Shown one piece after another: positions 22,822-54,643 of a DNA stretch of 64,000 bases. The notes under the pieces were generated by a model. That model had not been told where the DNA came from. It ran no database searches and worked only from the letters and a program-made list of their open reading frames with translations. This DNA is from Planctomycetaceae bacterium. GTDB taxonomy: Bacteria > Planctomycetota > Planctomycetia > Planctomycetales > Planctomycetaceae. The position numbers were made by a program, and so were the translations under genes. The DNA is taken from positions 1-64,000 of the forward strand of contig JAKFVC010000047.1 in assembly GCA_021732415.1 (NCBI GenBank). Reading direction: 5' to 3'. Each line of letters starts with the position of its first letter. Within the stretch, counting starts at the first letter, position 1.

Positions 22822-22916
22822 GTAGCCCGACTCTCTGAGTCGGGTCTTTTTGTAGCCTGACTCTCCGAGTCGGGTTATTCGTATTGAAACGCGCCCGACT
22901 CAGAGAGTCAGGCTAC
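22822..22916. repeat. Three copies of the GTAGCC-CGACTC hairpin repeat
   Basis: Direct copies at 22822 and 22852 and an inverted copy ending at 22916. Each copy is CCCGACTC or CCTGACTC, three bases, and the complement. The first copy directly follows the tRNA. Confidence 0.9.
22826..22851 (+). terminator. tRNA terminator formed by a repeat hairpin
   Basis: CCCGACTC-TCT-GAGTCGGG is followed at once by TCTTTTT. This is a textbook intrinsic terminator 13 bases after the tRNA, built from the dispersed repeat. Confidence 0.75.
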
Positions 22917-48140: not shown

Positions 48141-50549
48141 ATGAATCATCGTCGCTTCCCCAGGCTCGGCACCCTCTGCGTTGTCGTCGCCGGCCTGTTG
48201 GGCTGGTGTACTCAGACAAACTCCGCCGAGCCTCCTGTTCGGAAGATCGTGCTGATTGCCGGGCCGATTACCGGGCATCCCAAGCACGCGCATGAGTACG
48301 AAAAAAACGTCATCCTGTTGAAGCATCTGCTCGACACGTGCCCGAATGTCAAAGGGATTAAGACCGAGGCCCACTTCAAAGGCTGGCCTGAGGACGAGCG
48401 GACTCTGGAGGATGCCGACACGATTGTCATGATTTCCGACGGCGGAGATCATCGCGAGACCGATCACCCACTGTACGTCGGCGACCGTTTCAATAAGTTG
48501 GCCAAACAGATGGCTCGCGGGTGCGGATACGTTCAATTCCACTGGACGACCTTCAACCCCAGCCGCGTCCACAATCAGATCACCGAATGGGTCGGCGGGT
48601 ACTTCGACTATGAAAAGGGACCAGCCGCCAACAAATGGTTCTCGGCCATTCAGACTTGGGAGGGACCAGTCAGTCTAGGAACTCCGGAGCACCCGATATC
48701 GCGCGGCGTGAAGCCTTTTACGCTACGTGAAGAGTTCTATTTCAACCTGCGATTCCGCGAACAAGACGCCCGCGTCAAGCCGATCATTGTCACTCGTCCG
48801 CCTGGTGCAAAGGTCGATCAGACGGTGGGTTGGGCTGTCGAACGCCAGGACGGCGGACGTGGCTTCGGCTTCACCGGCGGGCACTTTTACTCCAATTGGT
48901 GGTTGCCTGATTTTCGTCGCACGGTGCTCAACGCGATCGTCTGGACGGCCAAAGTCGACGTGCCAGAAGGAGGCGTCGAATCCAGCCTGCCAGAACCAAC
49001 AAAGGCTTTGATCGTGACCGGCTATAACCACCCGGCACACGATTGGCGGAAGGTGACCGCGGCGTTGATTCCCGTCCTTGAACAGGATCCCCGCATTCAG
49101 GTCGAAGTGACCGAACAGCCGAACGATCTGGCCCAGGAAAACTTGAGTCGCTACGGGTTGATCGTCTTCAACTACAGCAACTGGGATCGAGCCGGTTTAA
49201 CCGATGCCGCCAAGCAGAATTTCATGAATTACCTGCGAGCGGGCGGGGGCCTCATGATCGTCCATTTTGCAAATGGTGCGTTCACGAACACGATTCCAAA
49301 TAAGGAATCTGACTGGCCAGAGTTCAGAACACAGATCGTACGCCGCATATGGGACCATACCCCCGGTCTGAGTGGTCACGATGCTTATGGAAAGTTCCAA
49401 GTCGAAACGACTGCGGCGGGAGACAAGCACGAAATCACGCAGGGATTGCCACCGTTTGAAACCGAGGACGAACTCTATTTCCGCCAGCAAGGGACGCTGC
49501 CGATCATCCCGTTGCTGACGGCCACTTCCAAGGTGACCAAGCAAGCCGAGCCGATGGCGTGGGTCTATGAATATGGTAAGGGGCGAATCTTTCAGACGGT
49601 TCTCGGACATGCAGATGTCTCCGTTCGTAAAGCCGGTTTGGTGATGCGTCGCGGTGCGGCTTGGGCGGCGAATCTGCCTCCTCTGAGTTTTGATCCGCCA
49701 GTATCGCTGACCGAGAACTATTTGTTTCGAGACGGTAGCTCGTGGTCTCCGGCGTCATCGCTGAAGGCGGCGGGCCTCACGGCGCCTACCCCGGGTGCTG
49801 GACCAATTCCGGTGAAGAATCCGATGCCTCTCAGTGAGGGCAAGTTTGGCAAAGGCTTGAACGCCGTCAGCGGCGGGGCGTTTGTGAAAGGGCGGGCGGA
49901 CTTTCGGCAGTTCCCGATCACCGTCGAGTGCTGGGTTCGTCTGAAAAATGCCTCGTCGTATAACATCCTCGTCGCCAATGAGCTCAAGTCTTCTGCTACG
50001 CATTGGGAGATTTTTACGATGCCGGCCTCGGGAGAATTGACAGCCTATCTGCCGGGGATGGCTCCGGATCATGTGCGGTCGAAGACCAATCTCTGTGACG
50101 ACAAATGGCATCATGTCGCCATGATTGTGGAGAAGACTCGCATCAGGTTATTTGCCGATGGAATGCAGGTCGCCGATCAAGCAGTGAAATTCAACGACGG
50201 CAATTCGGTCGCCGGCGATTTGGCCATCGGCAGCCTGGTGGCTCGTGAGATTGGCTGTAATGGATTGGTCGATGAAGTCCGAATTTCGAACTCGATTCGC
50301 GAAATCAAGTCCCTGCCGACCGCACCATTCGAGGCGGATGACACAACCATCGGACTGTGGCATTTTGATGAGCTGGATGCAGAAAAAAAGTTTCCGGATA
50401 GTTCGAAATTGAAGTCGCCCGCCGTCGCGGAGTTGGACTCTGTAAAAAAAAAGGACCGCCAGCTCAGCAAGGCGAAGATCACTTTGGAACGGAAGCCGTG
50501 GGGTTCAAATGGACCGAGGATGATTCGCGAGACGACCGCTGGCGGCTGA
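48141..50549 (+). CDS. ThuA-ThuA-LamG protein (first part of a possible frameshift fusion)
   Basis: An 802-residue exported protein. After the signal (LGTLCVVVAGLLGWCTQTNS) come two ThuA-type class I glutamine-amidotransferase-like domains: residues about 32-280 (KIVLIAGPITGHPKHAHEYE, MISDGGDHRETDHP, GFGFTGGHFYSNWWLPDFRR) and about 288-520 (KALIVTGYNHPAHDWRKVTA, GLIVFNYSNWDRAGL, GGGLMIVHFANGAF, GRIFQTVLGHADVSVRKAGL). A LamG/concanavalin-like domain covers about 570-745 (FPITVECWVRLKN, KWHHVAMIVEKTRIRLFADG). The last 35 residues after the A9 tract at 50444-50452 are not domain-like, while the overlapping frame is. ThuA proteins are linked to sugar metabolism, but activity is unproven. Confidence 0.85.
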   Translation: MNHRRFPRLGTLCVVVAGLLGWCTQTNSAEPPVRKIVLIAGPITGHPKHAHEYEKNVILLKHLLDTCPNVKGIKTEAHFKGWPEDERTLEDADTIVMISDGGDHRETDHPLYVGDRFNKLAKQMARGCGYVQFHWTTFNPSRVHNQITEWVGGYFDYEKGPAANKWFSAIQTWEGPVSLGTPEHPISRGVKPFTLREEFYFNLRFREQDARVKPIIVTRPPGAKVDQTVGWAVERQDGGRGFGFTGGHFYSNWWLPDFRRTVLNAIVWTAKVDVPEGGVESSLPEPTKALIVTGYNHPAHDWRKVTAALIPVLEQDPRIQVEVTEQPNDLAQENLSRYGLIVFNYSNWDRAGLTDAAKQNFMNYLRAGGGLMIVHFANGAFTNTIPNKESDWPEFRTQIVRRIWDHTPGLSGHDAYGKFQVETTAAGDKHEITQGLPPFETEDELYFRQQGTLPIIPLLTATSKVTKQAEPMAWVYEYGKGRIFQTVLGHADVSVRKAGLVMRRGAAWAANLPPLSFDPPVSLTENYLFRDGSSWSPASSLKAAGLTAPTPGAGPIPVKNPMPLSEGKFGKGLNAVSGGAFVKGRADFRQFPITVECWVRLKNASSYNILVANELKSSATHWEIFTMPASGELTAYLPGMAPDHVRSKTNLCDDKWHHVAMIVEKTRIRLFADGMQVADQAVKFNDGNSVAGDLAIGSLVAREIGCNGLVDEVRISNSIREIKSLPTAPFEADDTTIGLWHFDELDAEKKFPDSSKLKSPAVAELDSVKKKDRQLSKAKITLERKPWGSNGPRMIRETTAGG
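50444..50453 (+). other. Candidate -1 frameshift site, A9G with A AAA AAG in frame
   Basis: In the ThuA frame the codons read GTA AAA AAA AAG, so the dnaX-type heptamer A AAA AAG (50447-50453) is in the correct phase. A -1 slip moves translation into the 50498-54643 frame. GGAG lies 14 bases upstream of the heptamer (50429-50432), and CCGCCAGC at 50456-50463 can pair with GCTGGCGG at 50538-50545. Nine consecutive A also permit RNA polymerase slippage. Confidence 0.5.
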
Positions 50550-53500
50550 TGGATACCGGCCCGTTCTTCAGCGGCACACTGGCCCATCCCGGTGGCCCCA
50601 CGCTGAAGGGGCTCGCTATCAAGCTTGGTGACAAAGGGCAGGCCAGCATCTGTTACGACACCGAGTTGCTCCGGGTCAGTTGCGGCTGGACGGGTGGCTT
50701 TCTGCAGTTCAGCCCGTCTCGCTTTGGGTTGATCTCGCCGCCCGCGATTCAGGGGGCAATTCAATTCGCGTCGCCTCGCCAACCGGGTTGCACGAGCACC
50801 GGCAAGTTTGAGGATACGCGTATAAAACCCTTCGGTCCGTTGCCGCGCGACGTGGCTCACTACGAAGGGTTGTCTCTACACGACAATCGAGTCGTTCTGC
50901 GATACACGGTGGGCTCAGCGCGAGTGCTCGAATCGCCGTGGGCGGAGACGTCTGGTGACGCGACAATCTTCACTCGAGAATGGGAGATTGCGGCGGGCTC
51001 GCAAGAACTGCGACTGTTGGTATCAGATGGCAAATCTCGAGCTCGTCTGATTGGACCGACTTTCGGAGCGACGCTCGAATCGGCGCCGGAGAAGCCGACG
51101 ATCCTGGTGATTCCACCGCGCACCAAAGCGGTGCGAATCAAGCTCGCAGTTTGGAATTCGGACTCACAGTCCGCGGCACTTGAGCCATTACTGAATGCTT
51201 CGCCCGAGTGCCTGGATCTGGCCGCGATGTCGCAACCGGGAACACTTCGCTGGGGCGAACCACTCGTGACCAAGGGCGTCATCTCGGACAAACAAGATCC
51301 CTATGTCATCGACACGCTGACGATCCCATTTGAGAATCGCTATCAGGCCTTGATGTTTACCAGCGGCCTGGACTTCTTCGCGAATGGCGACGCGGCGGTC
51401 TGCACGGCTCACGGGGATGTGTGGCTGGTGAGTGGCATTGATGACCAGTTGGACCGGATCACCTGGCGACGATTCGCGACTGGTCTCTTTCAGCCGCTCG
51501 GATTGAAGATCGTGAAACGCGAAGCGGAGGAACTGGTCTATGTCCTGGGGCGAGATCAGATCACAACGTTGCACGATCGCAATCACGACGGCGAGGCCGA
51601 CTTCTATGAAAACTTCAACAATGATGGTCAGGCGACCGCGAATGCTCACGAATATGCGACCTGTCTGGAGACCGATTCTCAAGGCAATTTCTATTACTTG
51701 CGCGGTGACAGCGGGAGCCAGACAGAGCACGACGGCTGCCTGTTGCGGGTGACGCCGGACGGGCACACGCTAGAAGTCTTCGCGACCGGATTTCGCAATG
51801 CGAATGGACTGTCGATTGGACCAGAAGACACGATCACGGTGGCACCTCAAGAGGGCAATTGGACTCCGGGCTCGGCGATTTTTCAGGTGCGACAGGGTGG
51901 TTTTTATGGAGCAATGCAGGCCCATCATCGCAAAGTCGCGCCGACGGAATACGATCCGCCCATCTGCTGGATCCCTCGCCTGCAGGACAATTCCAGCGGC
52001 GGACAATCTTGGGTAACGAGTCACCGCTGGGGGCCGTTGCAGGGACAGTTACTGCACTTCTCGTTTGGTACCTGCCGGATGTTTTTGACGGTGCGGGAGG
52101 AACTCGAAAAGGGAGTTCAGGGCGGCACGGTGCAGTTTCCGTTGCTGTTTGATTCGGGAGTGATGCGTGGTCGTTTTCGGCCACAGGATGGTCAATTGTA
52201 TGTCGCGGGATTGAAAGGTTGGGTCTCCAGTGCGGTCCAGGATGGATGCCTGCAACGGGTGCGCTACACGGGTCGACCAGTCGATTTTCCGGTGAAGTTG
52301 CAGACCAAGTCCAATGGGGTGACTTTGACATTTACGGAGCCGCTCGATCCTAACGAAGCGGTGGATCCTGATAATTTTGGCGTTGAAGAATGGAACTATC
52401 TGTGGAGCGGCAATTACGGCTCTCCGGAAATGAAGGTCTCAAACCCCGGTCAGGTCGGGCATGATGAAGTCGAAGTCGTCTCGTCGACATTGCTGCCGGA
52501 TGGTAAGTCAGTCTTTCTGGAAATGCCCGATTTGAAGCCGGCCATGCAGGTCAGCATCAACTACACCTTGGCATCCAAGACCGGTAGACCGATCCAGCAA
52601 ACATTCAACGCCACGCTGCACAAACTCGGCCTTGAGCCTCAACCCGAGCCGCTGACCAGGAAGGCTCGTCCGGGCCAGTTGCCGCTGGCCGTCGAGCAAT
52701 CGCTGCGGCCGGGCCTCGTGATGAAGATCCACACGCTAGTGAATGCCGCGGCGCCCTCTCAGCATGCCGGACATGGGGTAACACGGCTGGCCGCGTATTA
52801 CCTGCCGCGTTCAACAGTGGAGACGGCCCTCGGGCGAGACGCACCGCTGGGGGCCACCTGGACTGGTTACCTCAAGGTACCGCAGAAGGGCGAGTATCAA
52901 TTTCGGATCGAAACGCGCGGCAAGGCGGGCCTGAAGATTGGGGCAGATGATATCGCCCTCAACACGCCCATGATCCTGCGACGAGGGTACCAACCTCTCA
53001 GCTTGTATTTTGACGAGCGGAACTCGGAAATCGACGTCCGTTTGCTATGGAAATCGGTCAATTCGCCGTGGGAAGCTGTCCCGCCGCAGTTGCTGTTTCA
53101 CCGACACGATGATGCGAAATTGGTGGACTCCCAGCTCTATTACTCTGGGAAAGACCTATTTCGGGAACACGGTTGCGCGAATTGTCATGGGTCACCCGAA
53201 GGGAAACGTGAAGCTGCCGAACAGTCTGAACTGGGGATGTCGGCGCCGGTTTTAGATCAGCTTGGCGAACGTCTGAACGCGGATTGGATTGCGGCGTGGA
53301 TTCAACGGCCGCATCAACTTCGTACCGCTGCGGTCATGCCGCAGCTCTTTCATGGCCAAGATCTATCGAGTGACAAACAGGCCATCGCCGATCTAACGGC
53401 ATTTCTGGTATCGGGAAGTCCCGCCGCAGAGCCAAGTCCATCGTCCGCTGCCACCGACGATACTGATATCGGGCTGCAGATCTATGAATCCCAAGGTTGT

Positions 53501-54643
53501 ATGGGCTGCCACCGCTTTACGCCGCCGGAGAGCACGGATGCCTTTCATCGAGTGTCGCTGCACTACGTGGGTGCGAAGTTTCGATCGGGCCAGATGGCCG
53601 AGTTCTTGCGAAATCCGCGGCGACACTCACCCCAGATCCGCATGCCAGATTTTCGTTTGACCGAGCCGGAAGCGCGAGCTCTGGAAACGTATGTGCGTTC
53701 GATGTCCACCGGCAAGATTTCGGCACCGAGCGAGACTCTTCGTGGTGACGCGAAACGTGGACAGCAAATTTTCGAATCAAAAGGTTGTCAGAATTGCCAC
53801 CTGATAAAGGCCGACGACAAGCGACCAACGACCAAACTTTCTCCGGTTTGGGGCAAGACGCAATCGACCGGTTGCCTGGCCGTCGAAGCTCCGGTGGAGG
53901 CAGTTCATCCGCGATATTCGTTATCTGATGAGAATCGTACAGCCCTGAACCGCTATTTGGAAAAAGTGGCCTCCAGAGCGCGTCCCCAATTTGATATCGA
54001 ACAGCCCCAGCGAATGGTCAAACGACTGAATTGCCAGGGCTGTCACAGCCGCGATGGCATCAACAGTCCGCTCGCCGAAATCTTGTCTGAGGAAGGTCAA
54101 GGACTGCCCCCCGAGGCGCTGCCGCAGCTCACGTGGGCGGGAGAGAAACTGCGAACCGATTGGATCGATCGCCTGTTGCATGGGAAACTAGCGTATCAAT
54201 CGCGTCCTTGGTTGAAGGCTCGGATGCCGTCCTTCCCGGACAATCGTCTGGCGGAGGGGCTGGCTCGAGAACACGGGGTTCGGTTTGATACTGCCACAAC
54301 ATCGCCCGCCACGGCGCCGGAGCAAGTCGAACTGGGTCGCCAGTTGACGCTCAAGGGGCAGGGCTTGGATTGCCGGCAATGTCATGGAGTTGGACAGGAG
54401 CAACCGGCGGGAGATCGGGCGACGTTGATCTCGGTGGGGATCAATTTCTCGGTGATTACCGATCGCATGAATCCCGAGTTCTTTCCCCGACTGTCGCTGA
54501 ATCCACCGCGATATGATCCCAATTCGCGAATGCCCGTGTTCGCTATCGACGGGAAGACGACCGCAGCCAAGGGGATTTTGGCTGGTGACGCCGAACGCCA
54601 GTACGAGGCGATCTGGGCCTATTTAAAGACATTAAAACCTTAG
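50498..54643 (+). CDS. DUF6797-propeller-PA14-pentaheme cytochrome (second part of a possible fusion)
   Basis: A 1,381-residue frame starting at GTG 50498 but with protein-like sequence extending upstream to the A9 tract. Order: DUF6797-type domain (DDRWRLMDTGPFFSGTLAHP, AIKLGDKGQASICYDTELLR; residues 1 to about 230), a sorbosone-dehydrogenase-like propeller (about 265-600; ALMFTSGLDFFANGDAAVCT, VFATGFRNANGLSIGPED), a beta linker, PA14 (about 765-870; PLGATWTGYLKVPQKGEYQF), and five CxxCH heme sites at residues 893 (CANCH), 1001 (CMGCH), 1097 (CQNCH), 1179 (CQGCH) and 1292 (CRQCH). By itself it lacks a signal peptide, so heme attachment would need the exported upstream part. Probably a periplasmic sugar-oxidising or electron-transfer protein. 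Confidence 0.85.
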   Translation: MGFKWTEDDSRDDRWRLMDTGPFFSGTLAHPGGPTLKGLAIKLGDKGQASICYDTELLRVSCGWTGGFLQFSPSRFGLISPPAIQGAIQFASPRQPGCTSTGKFEDTRIKPFGPLPRDVAHYEGLSLHDNRVVLRYTVGSARVLESPWAETSGDATIFTREWEIAAGSQELRLLVSDGKSRARLIGPTFGATLESAPEKPTILVIPPRTKAVRIKLAVWNSDSQSAALEPLLNASPECLDLAAMSQPGTLRWGEPLVTKGVISDKQDPYVIDTLTIPFENRYQALMFTSGLDFFANGDAAVCTAHGDVWLVSGIDDQLDRITWRRFATGLFQPLGLKIVKREAEELVYVLGRDQITTLHDRNHDGEADFYENFNNDGQATANAHEYATCLETDSQGNFYYLRGDSGSQTEHDGCLLRVTPDGHTLEVFATGFRNANGLSIGPEDTITVAPQEGNWTPGSAIFQVRQGGFYGAMQAHHRKVAPTEYDPPICWIPRLQDNSSGGQSWVTSHRWGPLQGQLLHFSFGTCRMFLTVREELEKGVQGGTVQFPLLFDSGVMRGRFRPQDGQLYVAGLKGWVSSAVQDGCLQRVRYTGRPVDFPVKLQTKSNGVTLTFTEPLDPNEAVDPDNFGVEEWNYLWSGNYGSPEMKVSNPGQVGHDEVEVVSSTLLPDGKSVFLEMPDLKPAMQVSINYTLASKTGRPIQQTFNATLHKLGLEPQPEPLTRKARPGQLPLAVEQSLRPGLVMKIHTLVNAAAPSQHAGHGVTRLAAYYLPRSTVETALGRDAPLGATWTGYLKVPQKGEYQFRIETRGKAGLKIGADDIALNTPMILRRGYQPLSLYFDERNSEIDVRLLWKSVNSPWEAVPPQLLFHRHDDAKLVDSQLYYSGKDLFREHGCANCHGSPEGKREAAEQSELGMSAPVLDQLGERLNADWIAAWIQRPHQLRTAAVMPQLFHGQDLSSDKQAIADLTAFLVSGSPAAEPSPSSAATDDTDIGLQIYESQGCMGCHRFTPPESTDAFHRVSLHYVGAKFRSGQMAEFLRNPRRHSPQIRMPDFRLTEPEARALETYVRSMSTGKISAPSETLRGDAKRGQQIFESKGCQNCHLIKADDKRPTTKLSPVWGKTQSTGCLAVEAPVEAVHPRYSLSDENRTALNRYLEKVASRARPQFDIEQPQRMVKRLNCQGCHSRDGINSPLAEILSEEGQGLPPEALPQLTWAGEKLRTDWIDRLLHGKLAYQSRPWLKARMPSFPDNRLAEGLAREHGVRFDTATTSPATAPEQVELGRQLTLKGQGLDCRQCHGVGQEQPAGDRATLISVGINFSVITDRMNPEFFPRLSLNPPRYDPNSRMPVFAIDGKTTAAKGILAGDAERQYEAIWAYLKTLKP

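Follow-up and report, generated by a model that had tools for sequence, protein, structure and literature searches.

In Thermus dnaX, where slippage is transcriptional, stops are present in both other frames (Atkins and others, PMC5009743; layout also in PMC1088944), and Thermus RNA polymerase holds an RNA-DNA hybrid of 9–10 bp (PMC5009743). A hairpin 5′ of the slippage motif is known to stimulate RNA polymerase slippage in Roseiflexus IS630 (PMC5009743). In many genomes, A runs begin to be selected against at a length of nine; the conserved-organisation criterion for slippage sites applied below comes from the same source (Baranov and others, PMC1088944).

We analysed a stretch of 64,000 nt from a Planctomycetaceae genome (the window), in which a run of nine A's lies between the frame of a ThuA-LamG protein and that of a DUF6797 protein with five heme motifs. 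This run (A9) probably lets one gene yield two products: ThuA-LamG alone, as an exported protein, and a longer five-heme cytochrome fusion. To our knowledge, few bacterial genes beyond mobile elements, dnaX and type III secretion use programmed slippage, and we found no paper on such slippage or frameshifting in Planctomycetes in the literature searched.

The A9G junction and its orthologues

The 0-frame ORF (48141–50549; all features of this junction are on the forward strand) encodes a protein of 802 aa, which would be the product made without slippage. It contains two ThuA stretches and a LamG-like domain (Pfam matches ThuA, 6e-42, and Laminin_G_3, 1e-17), and its N-terminus, MNHRRFPRLGTLCVVVAGLLGWCTQTNSAEPP, with a hydrophobic stretch, reads as a Sec signal peptide. 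The slippage site, A9G, occupies 50444–50453, with the nine A's at 50444–50452 and the G at 50453, in the 0-frame context GAC TCT GTA AAA AAA AAG GAC CGC. A slippery heptamer of the X_XXY_YYZ type, A_AAA_AAG, lies in the 0 frame at 50447–50453, and both the tract and the phase of the heptamer are as a previous sequence-only reading of this DNA had described them. Beyond the run, the 0 frame reads DRQLSKAKITLERKPWGSNGPRMIRETTAGG and ends at a TGA (50547–50549), 31 codons past the slippage site.

A −1 step at the run instead reads KKK-GPPAQQGEDHFGTEAVGFKW and stays open to 54643, with VKKKGPPAQQGEDHFGTEAVGFK as the predicted transframe peptide across the junction. This second frame (50453–54643), reached by a frame change only, encodes a DUF6797 domain (Pfam, 5e-28), a weak PA14-like stretch and cytochrome c domains; over both frames, the Pfam matches above the curated cut-off are PF06283, PF13385, PF20601, PF00034 and PF13442 (ThuA, DUF6797 and cytochrome c families). 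A motif scan places five CxxCH heme motifs at 53174–54385 (starts 53174, 53498, 53786, 54032 and 54371), the number claimed earlier. Upstream, the second frame is closed at 50399–50401 and open from 50402, and reading the sequence from there reveals no ATG, GTG or TTG until a GTG at 50498, which lies inside an AVGFKW block conserved in relatives. Nor does the second frame have, on reading, a usable start codon or a signal peptide of its own, and the earlier claim that it lacks a signal peptide holds.

This A9 is the sole A or T run of at least 8 in the window, and a pattern search of the 9.87-Mb genome returned just 15 runs of at least nine A's. Because such runs are so rare, the position of A9 at a domain boundary is far beyond chance. 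Transcriptional slippage is associated with sense-strand homopolymers of A or T that are at least some nine bases long, a length that this run has. Some 60 nt upstream, an A7G (50383–50390) carries a further in-phase A_AAA_AAG, which is not conserved: G003, from the same genus, has GAGAAGAAG at this place, having lost the heptamer through a synonymous change and kept A9. The upstream site acts as an internal control, which indicates that the heptamer by itself is not the conserved thing.

Orthologues were searched for in relatives and then in the whole family, which was placed as Planctomycetaceae through loci identical to named Schlesneria records, and junctions were classified by tblastn frames. 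Counts here and below cover the genomes examined, among which related genomes are non-independent. Split orthologues number 13, with three in the window's genus (the window's genome, G001, and G003, whose contig matches MAG RYN_439) and 10 in genus g56, at about 50% identity. Exactly A9G with a −1 step is found in 13/13, so that the organisation of the site is conserved throughout. All other orthologues with both halves, including that of Schlesneria (L039), are single-frame fusions. In a tree built from 63 rows, of which 56 are distinct, 50 orthologues are in frame and the 13 split ones form two groups; a single origin of the split is neither shown nor excluded. In relatives, the second frame has no stops and is 62–69% identical within the genus, and in g56 a 0-frame TAG directly follows the AAG in 10/10 genomes.

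The codon phase of the run is constant among the ThuA splits; in-frame orthologues of genus g38 have their A9G in a different one. Some in-frame relatives, namely L181 (genus g34) and several in g38, thus carry A9 at the corresponding position, and an early −1 stop is present in L181 alone. Such relatives may likewise produce both forms, with the roles of slippage and standard reading exchanged, but the g38 orthologues show no clear second product. In the split genera, we saw no ThuA junction put in frame by A10G.

Aligning the orthologues bears out the sequence-only reading, which had proposed that a −1 step joins the exported ThuA-LamG frame to a pentaheme DUF6797 frame: the frames, the Pfam domains and the orthologues agree, the fusion occupies a single frame elsewhere, and the A run is conserved. 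A programmed −1 step joining the two frames is strongly supported, since 13 split orthologues keep A9G and the −1 step and fusions are in frame elsewhere. The fused product would be the usual form, because the non-split orthologues are in-frame fusions.

Other A9 and A10 junctions in the family

We classified all 15 A9 or longer runs of the window's genome: four are at −1 junctions (ThuA-LamG/DUF6797, PhnD/PQQ-propeller, secretin-like/TPR and an IS3-type transposase), and a fifth, an A10, is in dnaX. One more is in a long ORF (L291), and the others are in frame, intergenic or antisense.

At the PhnD/PQQ junction (L121, A9G, G000:C1:35055-35064, reverse strand), an exported PhnD-type binding protein leads into a PQQ propeller (PF12974, PF13360). 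Across the family, 22 loci in 13 genera have the −1 arrangement (A9 in 21, A8 in one); six further loci are in-frame fusions and one is +1 with A10. The residue before KKK varies (A, S, V or L; codons GCA, TCA, GTA and TTA), and its codon ends in A in 21/22, a base beyond what the seven-base heptamer requires. In several orthologues the second frame opens just 2–8 codons ahead of the A run. Downstream structure in PhnD/PQQ was no better than in shuffled sequences, with no consistent hairpin. The +1 locus, L221 (G026, A10G), is unlike all others; it may be an indel error, or else a site where the polymerase slips by deletion, which would argue for slippage at the polymerase, and we give it little weight.

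The secretin-like/TPR junction (L285/L299, A9C, G000:C244:9769-9778, reverse strand) has halves named from their sequence, Pfam giving only a weak TPR match. It has the −1 arrangement in 26/27 resolvable loci from 18 genera (A9 in 25, A10 in one), with runs in three codon phases and C or G as the next base. In sister family f5, all 22 resolvable secretin/TPR loci have a single open frame with no A8 or longer run in the linker. Both this junction and PhnD/PQQ also occur in complete one-contig genomes. The IS3-type OrfA/OrfB junction (L126, G000:C131:26108-26117, reverse strand) has A9G in another codon phase.

The dnaX run (A10, L253/L295, G000:C56:25813-25822) has stops in both other frames. 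The dnaX linker carries A9 or A10, in varying phase, in 24/29 family genomes; stops follow at a median of 1.5 codons in the −1 frame and 4 in the +1 frame, against ~18–19 at control positions, and a +1 stop falls within 10 codons in 22/24 vs. 34% of control positions (P = 8e-7). Slippage on A9 or A10 probably gives gamma and tau. In both dnaX and secretin/TPR, run length is independent of codon phase.

Further runs were seen along the way. DUF1080-like/ThuA fusions (named from sequence) have A9G in frame between the domains, in differing codon phases, in g56 (L139, L150 and L153) and g38 (L329–L334); slippage there would yield a first-domain-only product. L291 (G000:C4:91928-91937) has its A9 in an ORF with at least 281 codons before and 318 after it and a −1 stop four codons on, and is a possible slippage gene. 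At L349 (G089:C177:8415-8427), an A9GTAA at an ORF end is followed by a long open −1 frame (KKKVKAVDEKTPSVESP..), possibly a further junction family. The enrichment of A9GTAR over a mirrored control in 170 genomes (~60 vs. ~42) was not informative.

Stimulators, mechanism and rival readings

The sequence-only reading had also proposed dnaX-like ribosomal stimulation by an upstream GGAG and a possible downstream GC stem. The Shine-Dalgarno-like GGAG is found at 50429–50432 but is absent in G003 and G001, so that the element located ~10 nt upstream in E. coli dnaX has no counterpart conserved in the genus. A possible RNA stem of 8 bp pairs 50456–50463 with 50538–50545; its 97-nt fold stands out from shuffles in the window (z = −2.5) but not clearly in G003 (−1.4), which has one mismatch, and G001 (−0.5), from which the stem is absent. 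The heptamer is in phase, as a dnaX-like ribosomal mechanism would have it, but the mechanism itself is not established, neither GGAG nor stem being conserved in the genus. An Rfam search of 50000–51000 gave no credible match, and z-scores for the 50 nt upstream in the ThuA splits (−1.8 to 0.8) were not informative about an upstream hairpin as a transcription-slippage stimulator.

Genus g56 has hairpins 4–12 nt downstream of the run in 10/10 genomes; most are strong, with sequences that differ from one another. Two or more of the types are copies of palindromes dispersed genome-wide, GACTCTCCGAGTC/GTCACTCCGTGAC, which number 374 in G113, 217 in G084 and 174 in the window's genome, compared with 2–5 for a mirrored control. 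The hairpins may be slippage stimulators or merely tolerated linker insertions. A stem-loop 5–9 nt downstream, as in E. coli dnaX, is seen in g56 but is not conserved in the window's genus, nor do PhnD/PQQ loci have a consistent structure. One copy of the palindromic repeat, which reaches hundreds of copies in some g56 genomes, is also present in the window, at position 22859.

We favor, as likely, one cistron with a programmed RNA-polymerase slippage site that turns A9 into A10, perhaps with some ribosomal slippage. RNA polymerase would slip on the nine A's, a length that fits because the Thermus hybrid is of 9–10 bp, and a fraction of mRNAs would receive ten A's, or 10+3n. Translated normally, A9 mRNA would give the short exported ThuA-LamG protein, and A10 mRNA would give a fusion of ~2,200 aa, ThuA-LamG-DUF6797-pentaheme cytochrome; an mRNA one A short would end early in the third frame. 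The cytochrome part must be exported to receive heme, and for this the pentaheme region would rely on the N-terminal signal peptide of the ThuA-LamG half. A −1 ribosomal slip at A_AAA_AAG may contribute. Since the fusion is an uninterrupted frame in the majority of relatives, we infer that it is a working form and that the split with A9 adds a short form at some ratio. The site, the frames, their conservation, the in-frame fusions elsewhere and the other A9 junctions are directly observed; the occurrence and level of slippage, its transcriptional nature and the relevance of both products are inferred.

Transcriptional slippage ranks first and ribosomal slippage second because the feature conserved across genes is the run length of nine and not the codon phase. 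Programmed −1 ribosomal frameshifting of the E. coli dnaX type, in which tandem tRNA-Lys would slip one base at A_AAA_AAG on A9 mRNA, would explain why the heptamer is in phase at 13/13 ThuA and 22/22 PhnD −1 sites, which speaks against a polymerase-only view, as do the strong g56 hairpins, placed in 10/10 genomes at about the distance of a ribosomal stimulator; the window's fold also points this way. Whatever its phase, an A9 run contains a heptamer on which ribosomes can slip, and the phase data are therefore compatible with the ribosome as well. However, nine A's exceed the seven needed and the surplus is conserved, the in-phase heptamer 60 nt upstream is not, GGAG and stem vary within the genus, PhnD has no consistent hairpin, and homologous secretin/TPR junctions are in other phases. 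A seven-base heptamer leaves unexplained both the additional A's and the variable phase seen in secretin/TPR and dnaX, which favors the polymerase and makes a purely ribosomal origin doubtful. Polymerase slippage, which the sequence-only reading had listed as an alternative, gives the better fit, as the nine-A run recurs in different phases with no consistent hairpins.

Single-base indels in homopolymers are a common error and the genome is a draft of 350 contigs, which could suggest a frameshift mutation, a decayed gene or an assembly or sequencing error, but 13 genomes from two genera share an identical A9G with its −1 step, the second frame is stop-free at 62–69% identity within the genus, and sister junctions occur in complete genomes, all of which leaves this hardly credible. 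Those 13 genomes rule out an assembly or sequencing error and effectively exclude the real deletion that had also been raised. Phase variation at the DNA level, with run length differing between cells and the fusion switching on and off, could be suspected from a homopolymer at a gene junction and from the single A8 and single A10 (+1) PhnD loci; it is very improbable given exactly nine A's in 13/13 ThuA, 21/22 PhnD −1 and 25/26 secretin −1 sites and the lack of an in-frame A10G ThuA junction in the split genera. Two separate genes, the second expressed by internal initiation or translational coupling, could make use of the GTG at 50498, but this codon is within the conserved AVGFKW block with no signal peptide after it, and the 2–8 open codons ahead of the run in several PhnD second frames add to making this arrangement highly unlikely.

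Significance and comparison with described systems

A single genome holds three non-mobile −1 candidates together with dnaX. Each is conserved over at least two genera, and for two of them conservation extends beyond twelve; because of this conservation, comparative study and tests in cultured relatives are possible. On balance, we lean toward the view that Planctomycetaceae use RNA-polymerase slippage on A9/A10 as a standing device that is conserved across numerous genera and serves dnaX together with a set of multidomain proteins, exported or of the envelope, where it would set the ratio of short to long product. The remainder of the genome holds hardly any such runs. Because gene callers split such genes, an exported five-heme cytochrome seems to be without a signal peptide and its partner seems truncated, and Planctomycetes annotation would change for genes of this kind.

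The locus shares the heptamer in phase with E. coli dnaX, where −1 ribosomal frameshifting involves A_AAA_AAG, an SD-like element and a stem-loop, but neither element is conserved in the window's genus, and nine A's rather than seven are conserved. As in IS3-family OrfA/OrfB, of which L126 is one copy in the window's genome, an A9 marks the −1 junction, although the IS3 genes belong to a mobile element and the ThuA, PhnD and secretin cases are chromosomal genes for envelope or exported proteins. Slippage joins two frames into a longer protein in Shigella mxiE (PMC1088944) as it would here, but there on a U run in the mRNA of a regulator, an unrelated gene. The locus also resembles Thermus thermophilus dnaX, with nine A's on the sense strand and two products from one gene, and the family's own dnaX has A9/A10 and stops in both other frames; in Thermus slippage shortens the product, whereas here the long product, an exported multidomain cytochrome fusion, would need it.
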